Positions 3,924-6,160 of a stretch of DNA of 11,127 bases are shown piece after piece. The stretch covers positions 1-11,127 of the forward strand of contig JANWWB010000014.1 in NCBI GenBank assembly GCA_025056515.1. Reading direction: 5' to 3'. The stretch comes from Anaerolineales bacterium. GTDB lineage: Bacteria > Chloroflexota > Anaerolineae > Anaerolineales > Villigracilaceae. The notes under the pieces were generated by a model, which had not been told where the DNA came from, ran no database searches, and worked only from the letters and a program-made list of their open reading frames with translations. Position 1 is the stretch's first letter, and each line of letters opens with the position of its first letter. Made by a program: the position numbers and the translations under genes.

Positions 3924-5450
3924 ATGACCATTGTCCTAGACGGTTCTTCCCTTACGATCGAAAAACTTGTTGCAATTGCCCGGTTCGGGGAGAAGGTGGA
4001 GCTTGCTCCCGAGGCACTCGAGCGCATCAAGGTCTGCCGTGCTATGTTGGAAGAAAAGTTGGCAGCCAGGGAAATTATGTATGGCACGAATACAGGCATT
4101 GGCGAGTTTTCCGAGAAGGTGCTCAGTGATGAGCAGGTGAAGGAATTTCAGAAATATCTGATCTACAATCACGCAGCAGGCATCGGCGAGCCTGCACCGA
4201 TCGAATATGTGCGCGGCGCCCTGGCCAGTCGTATCAATGTCCATGCGCATGGCAATTCGGGTTGCCGCCCGGAGATTACGTTAACCTTGGTGGAAATGCT
4301 CAACAAGGGTGTTACGCCGGTGGTCTGTCAGAAGGGTTCGGTTGGTGCTTCCGGCGACCTTGCACCAATGGCGCAAGCCATGCTTCTTCTGATGGGGGAG
4401 GGCGAAGCCTTTTATCAGGGTGAACGTTTGCCCGGACGGGTTGCAATGGAACGTGCCGGCATTCCCATCCCCGGACTACAGGCGCGCGATGGGCTTGCGG
4501 CGATTAACGGTTCAAACCTCCTAACAGCAATGAGCGCCATCCATATCTACGAGATGGAACGTTTCCTCAAGCAGGCTGAAATTGCAGCTGCCATGACGAT
4601 TGAGGCACTTTTGGGAAACCTGAAACCTTACCATCCCAAAGTACACGAACTGCGCGGCTTCCGAGGGGCGATCGTCAGTGCAGCCAATATCCGCAAGGTC
4701 ATCGCCGGTTCGGACCTGACCACCGGTAAGGTCAAAACCAAGGTGCAAGATGCCTACTCAATGCGTTCCACCCCCCAAGTCATCGGGGCAGCACGGGACG
4801 CAGTGGCTTATGCCCGTTCGCAGGTCGAAATCGAACTGAACGGCGTCGGCGATAACCCTATCTGGATTCCCGAGGAGAAACTGACTTTGACCGGAGCGAA
4901 TTTCCAGGGGACGCCCGTTTCCCTGCCAATGGACATGGCCGGAGCGGCGATTACGATGGTTTGTGTGCTCTCGGAGCGGCGTCTCAACCGTCTAACCAAC
5001 CCGGCATTATCCCAAGGATTGCCTGACTTTCTGGCACACGATCCTGGATTTTATTCTGGTTTGATGCTCTCGCAGTATACAGCGGATATGCTGATTGTGG
5101 AGCAGCGCATTTTGAGTATGCCGGCCTCCATTCAATCGATCCCCGCTGCAGCCGACCAGGAGGACTTTGTCTCGATGGGTATGAACACGGCTCTCAAGAA
5201 TGCCCAGATTTTGGATAACGCCTATGGTGTTTTGGGCATCGAGTTCATGGCTGCCGCACAAGCGCTCGATTTCCGACAGTTCACACCCGGGCGCGGCACA
5301 CAGAAGGCGCGTGAGGTCATTCGCCGGTATGTGGCTCATTTGGATATTGACCGCCCACTGTATCCTGATCACAACACCATGAAAGAGTTGGTCAAGTCAG
5401 GCGAGATTCTGGAAGAAGTTGAAAAGGAAATCGGTCCGTTGGAGAGTTGA
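3924..5450 (+). CDS. hutH: Histidine ammonia-lyase (MIO-dependent aromatic amino-acid lyase family)
   Basis: A 508-residue enzyme that removes ammonia from L-histidine to give urocanate, the first step of histidine breakdown, in the cytoplasm. The self-forming MIO cofactor comes from Ala142-Ser143-Gly144 in GSVGASGDLAPMA. Other active-site residues sit where they do in the Pseudomonas enzyme: Tyr53 (YGTNTG), His83, Asn195 (INGSN), Gln275/Tyr278/Arg281 (QDAYSMR), Phe327 (GANFQG) and Glu413 (DQEDFVSMG). The histidine-type Glu413 and His83 favour histidine over tyrosine or phenylalanine. Two departures stand out: the selectivity pair is Asn82-His83 rather than the usual Ser-His, and the inner loop reads TGIGEF instead of TGFG. 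AAGGAGAG precedes ATG 3924. No hutU, hutI or hutG lies in the window. A related MIO lyase or aminomutase remains possible. Confidence 0.88.
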   Translation: MTIVLDGSSLTIEKLVAIARFGEKVELAPEALERIKVCRAMLEEKLAAREIMYGTNTGIGEFSEKVLSDEQVKEFQKYLIYNHAAGIGEPAPIEYVRGALASRINVHAHGNSGCRPEITLTLVEMLNKGVTPVVCQKGSVGASGDLAPMAQAMLLLMGEGEAFYQGERLPGRVAMERAGIPIPGLQARDGLAAINGSNLLTAMSAIHIYEMERFLKQAEIAAAMTIEALLGNLKPYHPKVHELRGFRGAIVSAANIRKVIAGSDLTTGKVKTKVQDAYSMRSTPQVIGAARDAVAYARSQVEIELNGVGDNPIWIPEEKLTLTGANFQGTPVSLPMDMAGAAITMVCVLSERRLNRLTNPALSQGLPDFLAHDPGFYSGLMLSQYTADMLIVEQRILSMPASIQSIPAAADQEDFVSMGMNTALKNAQILDNAYGVLGIEFMAAAQALDFRQFTPGRGTQKAREVIRRYVAHLDIDRPLYPDHNTMKELVKSGEILEEVEKEIGPLES

Positions 5451-5579
5451 CTCGCTTGGGAGTTCAGCAAGTAGGAGCTTCTCTGCTTCAATTTCTAGGA
5501 CAATCTTTGCGCTTTGCTGGCTGACCCGACCTGGAAGGCTGATCGGGCAAGCACAACCAGTCCTATTGATCGAGGTGTT

Positions 5580-5849
5580 CTCGGAGCGATAGATTCCGAG
5601 TAAAATTGCGCTACCCAGAGAGCAGGAATCATCCTGCCATTCCCGAAGAATGTGTTTTCTAAAAACTCGACGATTGTGAGAAAACAATTTTTGTTGCCAC
5701 TGCTTAGGGGATAACTCCCCTGGTCAAGAGCTGGGAAGCCACCTGGGGCAGCTCATGCCCCAAAATCAGCCTGCTTCGGCGGGTTTCCAAGTCATGAGCC
5801 GAGGACTTCAGTCCCCCGGCAGGTGTGATTAAGAAATGAGTGAGCTCAT
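5580..5849 (+). ncRNA. Candidate structured RNA: dense stem-loops with a possible pseudoknot
   Basis: The 428 bp between hutH and the GNAT gene hold no convincing gene but many short perfect hairpins. Stems pair 5580-5585/5595-5600, 5622-5627/5632-5637, 5638-5642/5648-5652, 5653-5660/5679-5686, 5706-5711/5716-5721, 5744-5750/5756-5762 and 5769-5774/5779-5784 (C-UUCG-G tetraloop). The next is a two-part stem, 5798-5801/5817-5820 enclosing 5803-5806/5811-5814, followed by 5836-5840/5845-5849. The loop of the 5744-5762 hairpin starts GCTCATG (5751-5757), the exact complement of CATGAGC (5793-5799), allowing a pseudoknot. The UUCG loop favours the plus strand. The overall look recalls HEARO/omega RNAs of the IS200/IS605 world, but no IscB or TnpB gene is beside it. 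The stretch 5451-5579 shows nothing firm. The 5653-5686 stem followed by AATTTTTG could be a weak hutH terminator. Confidence 0.4.
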
Positions 5850-5878
5850 GAGTACCTTTTTAGCGAGGACGTTCCGAA

Positions 5879-6160
5879 ATGACCGGCAATGCTATTGAAA
5901 TTGTTCACAACCCAGAAAAGAATCGTTTCGAACTTGAGCAAGACGGCTTGCTATGCGTCTTAGAATACTATGTTGTAGAGGGCACAATGGTGTTCACCCA
6001 CACCGAGGTCCCATCGGCGCTTGGTGGGCGCGGCCTAGGGTCACGCTTGGCACAAGCGGGTTTGGAGTATGCCCGCCAGCAGGGGCTTAAAGTCCGTCCC
6101 TTGTGTTCCTTTATTGCCGGTTATATTCAAAAACATCCGGAATATCAGGATTTGCTCTGA
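5879..6160 (+). CDS. Small GNAT-fold N-acetyltransferase-like protein (COG2388/YjdJ type)
   Basis: A 93-residue protein of the minimal GNAT type. The acetyl-CoA-binding motif A is visible: strand MVFTHTEVP (37-45), then GGRGLGS (49-55), matching the R-x-x-G-x-G/A pyrophosphate loop, followed by a helix SRLAQAGLEYARQQG. The C-terminus, VRPLCSFIAGYIQKHPEYQDLL, is typical of this short family; the tyrosine- and histidine-rich end is its hallmark. Members are near 90-100 residues, so the protein is complete. The substrate is unknown. ATG 5879 has GAGG 10 nt upstream, an acceptable though spaced ribosome site. It stands alone: the structured region lies before it and a strong terminator follows at 6286-6325. 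Confidence 0.8.
   Translation: MTGNAIEIVHNPEKNRFELEQDGLLCVLEYYVVEGTMVFTHTEVPSALGGRGLGSRLAQAGLEYARQQGLKVRPLCSFIAGYIQKHPEYQDLL

Follow-up and report, generated by a model that had tools for sequence, protein, structure and literature searches.

Positions 5658-5852 of the window (the whole 11,127-nucleotide stretch of Anaerolineales DNA analysed here) are read as one decayed copy of a MITE (a non-autonomous mini-transposon) with ends like those of an IS4-family element, at a probability of roughly 85%. This reading follows from the shared ends, from target duplications at many copies, and from a transposase gene that lies between such ends in a relative. The features to which the text refers are the following.

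3924..5450, + strand: hutH-like gene (aromatic amino acid lyase), upstream context; PF00221, E 3e-163
5658..5852, + strand: the entire element, a decayed 195-bp MITE copy, delimited by the copy alignment and by a match to covariance model R1 (E 1.2e-41), the window copy being one of the 11 copies used to build R1
5659..5671, + strand: left terminal inverted repeat CTAAAAACTCGAC, agreeing with the consensus CTACCAACCTGAC at 9 of 13 positions
5696..5832, + strand: four-hairpin core; match to core model R2 (E 3.2e-25), the window copy being among the 15 rows of R2
5706..5721, + strand: hairpin H1, AGGGGATAACTCCCCT, from sequence; helix 1 of the pair counts
5738..5752, + strand: hairpin H2, GCCACCTGGGGCAGC, decayed in the window copy, from sequence; helix 2
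5769..5784, + strand: hairpin H3, GCCTGC-TTCG-GCGGGT, the UUCG stem of the earlier note, from sequence; helix 3
5802..5815, + strand: hairpin H4, AGGACTTCAGTCCC, from sequence; helix 4
5840..5852, - strand: right terminal inverted repeat GTGAGCTCATGAG, badly decayed, agreeing with the consensus GTCAGGTATCTAG at 7 of 13 positions
5879..6160, + strand: GNAT-type acetyltransferase gene, downstream context; PF14542, E 6.6e-29

The element belongs to a dispersed family. A BLASTN-type search of its own genome returned 11 further pieces with 67-82% identity (E < 0.002), and R1 returned 20 diverged copies at E<=1.4e-6, the window copy included, with one more at 0.06. Further copies elsewhere in the genome, for which the earlier note had proposed a search, are therefore present. 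R1 matches were obtained in 10 of 61 genomes, the window genome among them. In the copy alignment, similarity spans the stretch between two terminal inverted repeats (CTA..ACCTGAC), which are clear in the family consensus and decayed in the window copy. This alignment, A1, holds 11 of the 12 copies found by BLAST, a fragment (L011) being left out, and R1 was built from 11 copies. The majority consensus, typed by hand, folds at z -4.7. Nineteen near-complete copies (L046 left out) have a mean pairwise identity of 64%, and most of their departures from the consensus are C>T or G>A changes. The consensus of these 19 resembles its own reverse complement more than all shuffles do (0 of 200 as high), whereas for the window copy the same comparison gives no more than chance, with 180 of 200 shuffles scoring as high. 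Across all 20 copies the flanks carry a duplication signal, with a mean best match of 3.6/8 vs 2.8 in mismatched flanks (p 0.0043 by permutation). Among single copies, L027 has a target duplication of 8/8 and L034 and L044 have 7/8 each, and that of the window copy is weak (5/8, with a one-base shift). None of the 20 copies lies inside a long open frame. No frame is open across the window copy, from which a transposase or any other open frame is absent. Erosion extends to its core, which keeps 25 of 33 pairs; in copies from 29 other genomes, no fewer than 29 of 33 survive (in L135, 26 of the 27 with letters present).

The ends of the family connect it to a transposase. Of 37 genomes, 26 contain the end sequence TCTAGCCACCTGACAGTTT when up to 3 mismatches are allowed; with the pattern reversed, most genomes gave 0 matches and none gave more than 2 per strand. 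In related genomes this sequence bounds insertion sequences of about 1.2 kb. Two (L108, L110) of 12 stretches read contain only one end. Five long elements, with end pairs 1173-1241 bp apart, show exact 8-9-bp duplications in three cases and none in two; duplications flank all five short elements with IS4 ends, one having a mismatch. The one transposase scanned between such ends belongs to the IS4 family (NF033591, E 1.6e-48), and PF01609 was also matched. An exact scan of public genomes gave at least 80 contigs; among the matches listed, 79 are titled Chloroflexi or recognised Chloroflexi lineages, and one is titled Alphaproteobacteria. The short elements with IS4 ends and duplications (L104-L107, L109) have different interiors, so that several unrelated interiors share those ends.

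From these ends and duplications we infer that the MITE transposed, most likely moved in trans by an IS4-type transposase, in a step that would duplicate 8-9 bp of the target. The source element would have been an imperfect palindrome carrying four hairpins between its ends. No IS4-type transposase was found in the window genome, in a search of an assembly 83.75% complete that was run without a positive control, and each end of the copies there departs from the IS4 consensus at 2-7 of its 14 positions. The window MITE is best read as stranded, without a visible partner in its own genome.

The earlier note had described 5580-5849 as an orphan structured RNA candidate, crowded with short stems and with a predicted pseudoknot. 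The C-UUCG-G hairpin is indeed present at 5769-5784, together with several short stems, and 5580-5849 folds better than shuffled sequence, as the note had required (-95.2 kcal/mol vs -77.9 +/- 4.7, z -3.71, 0 of 200 shuffles as good). The minus strand of the same stretch is nearly as well folded (z -3.37), and such near-equal folding of both strands is expected of palindromic DNA. However, the structure does not extend over the whole stretch. The signal lies in 5658-5852, which folded alone gives z -2.41 with 1 of 200 shuffles as good, whereas 5458-5657, which includes the first stems of the earlier description, is shuffle-like (z -0.04, 91 of 200 as good). The proposed pseudoknot has a similar mixed outcome. 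GCTCATG (5751-5757) and CATGAGC (5793-5799) are exact reverse complements over 7 nt, but covariation among the 11 copies does not support the helix, which pairs in 89.6% of cells vs 89.0% with shuffled partners and has a two-sided change in one cell only.

Pairing is not maintained among the resident copies. Their hairpins pair in 81.0% of cells vs 81.4% with shuffled partners, and covariation among them is absent, with two-sided changes at 3 pairs vs 6.7 in shuffles. Cells in stems and other cells have changed at similar rates: C at 25.2 vs 24.3%, G at 21.7 vs 23.7%, A at 22.9 vs 20.4%, and T, for which there are few cells, at 11.8 vs 20.5%. The copies in the window genome are dead, mutating neutrally without regard to pairing. 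The like change rates and the lack of a pairing excess argue against an RNA that serves the host. Such an RNA, a structured RNA or attenuator kept for its fold between the hutH-like gene and the GNAT gene, would account for a fold that beats shuffles and for the strong covariation of related cores between genomes described below. Nevertheless, it is very improbable given 20 dispersed copies, stems that mutate like the rest with no covariation inside the genome, and two strands that fold equally; in addition, no promoter-like or terminator-like site was found inside the element.

A second RNA reading was that the stretch resembles the HEARO/omega RNAs and could be a stand-alone HEARO/omega RNA or TnpB guide RNA. 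The multi-stem layout and the many copies, with no nuclease gene beside the window copy, fit this reading. However, RF02033 has no match at E<=10 in 5450-5900, and no HEARO match reaches the gathering score around the 20 copies of the genome. The TnpB-type nuclease profile PF07282 is unmatched in the genome, whose assembly is 83.75% complete, and its control was positive in 6 of 14 genomes; the empty result with the IscB profile PF14239 is uninformative, its control being positive in 0 of 14 genomes. Inverted repeats conserved at both ends would, moreover, leave no variable guide directly at one end. The absence of a model match and of PF07282, together with these conserved ends, disfavours the guide-RNA reading to the point where it is scarcely credible. 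The fallback offered in the earlier note, a decayed transposon end, was closer: the stretch is a transposon remnant, but a whole decayed MITE rather than an end only. An IS605-type right end was an early reading of our own and was dropped once both ends proved to have inverted repeats and duplications.

Searches against Rfam gave no match at gathering score in the whole window. Two matches from a permissive search of 5450-5900 fall below gathering and are judged to be chance, namely a lncRNA with E 8.2 and, on the minus strand, psaA with E 0.0012 and 23.9 bits (gathering 50). Around the 20 copies of the genome, only RNase P and a tRNA reach the gathering score, and the core has no such match in any of them. 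One copy (L036:1350-1542) adjoins the RNase P RNA (L036:1595-2055), and another (L035:1501-1689) adjoins the tRNA (L035:1717-1789). Four matches on 14 related loci are all below the gathering score. Acido-Lenti-1 appears below threshold over or beside the core at L268:298-328 (-) and L289:283-331 (-), with 27.6 and 22.4 bits (gathering 37).

The window copy is a fossil, yet it leads to a structured repeat whose core is matched by R2 at E<=1e-4 in 157 of the 298 sampled genomes of the class. In a sample of the phylum, 43 of 251 genomes have R2 matches, and 24 of these lie outside the class. About 11 candidates were scored per genome in the class-wide search, so copy numbers are lower bounds. 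In alignment A2, of 15 cores, 16 of the 30 pairs have two-sided changes; shuffles average 8.0, and none of 500 reaches 16. This count is favoured by the choice of these 15 from 33 cores by eye as well formed; the 33 candidates had already lost L041, L042, L044, and L046. R1, which found the A2 cores, held only H2, and 15 of the 16 two-sided pairs fall in the other three hairpins. A candidate helix outside this set, P2 (A2 34-40 with 109-115), was rejected as unsupported, being paired in 69.5% of cells vs 69.7% shuffled. Alignment A3 combines the window copy with the best-scoring R2 copy of each of 29 genomes, aligned by sequence alone, with another copy of the window genome (L113) left out. 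Two-sided changes occur in 27 of its 33 pairs, and 94.8% of cells pair vs 68.6% shuffled, with a covariation score of 0.686 vs at most 0.100 for slid partners; since the rows were found with a structure model, these values lean to pairing and the covariation is partly built in. The size of the excess and the A2 result nonetheless make the between-genome covariation hard to dismiss. Loops were inspected by eye in 37 of 40 fetched stretches (L288, L299, and L300 left out). UGAA or UAAA is frequent in the first two and UUCA or UUUA in the last two, a pattern that indicates a palindromic array and fits the matches on both strands.

Covariation in homologues, whose absence was to count against an RNA, is thus absent within the window genome but strong between genomes. 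The related suggestion of a new RNA class agrees with the second of these results, but nothing shows the core acting as RNA. Palindromic DNA can also acquire covariation by hairpin-templated repair, in which selection has no part. The between-genome covariation may therefore reflect either selection on the fold or such repair. Because the stems covary between genomes yet erode within the window genome, the fold probably matters while the element spreads, as DNA or as transcript, and not for the host at the landing site.

The core is not confined to IS4-like ends. Only one of the 29 class copies, that of G027, is flanked by IS4 ends at up to 3 mismatches, and in this copy the core, both ends, and an exact 8-bp duplication occur together. 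The other 28 are without them at a cut of 3 mismatches, which would miss decayed IS4 ends, as in most copies of the window genome. Repeats of a GGCTA(C/T) type enclose five of the seven copies in G274, and four of those five have exact 8-bp duplications. One of four copies in G072 has both ends of another repeat, with a duplication of 7/8, and three of five in G234 have a third kind of terminal repeat with no direct duplication. The TATACTG-ended elements L290 and L291 of G234 are flanked by repeats that look inverted rather than direct, as if in a palindromic target. No clear ends were found in G164, G331, G155, G263, G276, and G247. The cores of G164 (L261-L267) occur in both orientations, several within longer repeated blocks of about 300-480 bp. 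The neighbouring frames scanned for an autonomous partner of the G274 and G072 repeats yielded none; the recognised domains were PrsW, cohesin, and MutS2.

The core also occurs inside genes. Long open frames run through it in six class copies, four of which were examined with Pfam (L117, L126, and L067 lay outside that check). Pfam-supported genes hold 4 of the 29 best class copies, and the Pfam domains span the inserts. In one family of genomes, rluD was matched at E<=1e-60 in 10 of 14. The core alone is present in frame in four of these ten, at two different loops; five are without it and one is cut off. The L140 frame runs into an undetermined base past the insert, and its far end differs. 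A uvrD-like gene (L131) also carries the core in frame, and the peptides encoded by the core in rluD and in this gene are alike, with SPLKR or SPSRR followed by QSASAD. The same rluD loops hold further short in-frame inserts that have no relation to the core (L301, L302, L304, L305, L306). Inspected by eye, some of these inserts are palindromic, and the loops look like a landing site that several small repeats have in common.

These observations raise the question of whether the core alone is mobile, in the manner of a Rickettsia palindromic element or a REPIN, with the IS4-like ends as incidental flanks of an older composite. The 28 of 29 copies from other genomes without IS4 ends within 3 mismatches, the core-only inserts in rluD, and the cores between other terminal repeats agree with such a history. 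We consider it unlikely for the window family, in which similarity extends as far as the terminal repeat on each side and a duplication signal persists in the flanks. The G027 copy joins both ends to an exact 8-bp duplication, and the 3-mismatch cut passes over decayed ends. The window element is thus still read as a MITE with IS4-like ends, and its core belongs to a wider palindromic repeat family found between other terminal repeats, alone, or in frame in genes. We tentatively propose that the core could represent an undescribed, phylum-wide class of miniature mobile palindrome. Its four covarying hairpins would themselves be the substrate of spreading, as folded single-stranded DNA or RNA, and it would travel alone or in MITEs with unrelated terminal repeats, occasionally becoming in-frame protein sequence.

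Several consequences follow. In genome scans, repeats of this kind can be mistaken for orphan structured RNAs. The contrast between strong covariation among genomes and its absence within this one calls for care before covariation by itself is accepted as proof that an RNA gene exists. The in-frame copies in rluD and the uvrD-like gene make protein growth in the style of Rickettsia palindromic elements testable outside Rickettsia. Finally, terminal repeats of different kinds enclose one core, and what moves that core is a question that can be tested.

The interiors of typical MITEs are remnants of insertion sequences. Unlike IS-derived MITEs, the element described here has as its interior a four-hairpin core that other genomes reuse within different terminal repeats and that covaries from genome to genome. 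In other respects, it resembles the IS-derived bacterial MITEs Correia/NEMIS, ERIC, and QMITE2 as they appear in excerpts of two sources: it is short and non-coding, has terminal inverted repeats and target duplications, and occurs in many copies with stable stem-loops and ends common to an insertion sequence (PMC10969869; PMC3733652). Among the open-licence PMC papers listed, no title or displayed start of an abstract names the repeat. GTAG-tagged repeats are reported in Chloroflexi in a single sentence (PMC3733652). HEARO/omega RNA (RF02033), as excerpted, shares a multi-stem look with the element (PMC9755519), but the element has no match to its model and has inverted-repeat ends on both sides. 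With the REPIN/BIME repeats moved by Y1/RAYT, the core shares an inverted arrangement of hairpins and many copies, according to excerpts (PMC6006769; PMC3733652). However, unlike these repeats, it has four hairpins, and in several genomes it lies within terminal repeats with duplications. By the excerpted description, Rickettsia palindromic elements are likewise palindromic, about 100-150 bp long, and found in frame in unrelated genes, where they encode similar peptides (PMC10969869). The core differs from them in its phylum and its four hairpins, and in its placement, with 4 of 29 class copies in Pfam-supported genes and 0 of 20 copies of the window genome in long frames.
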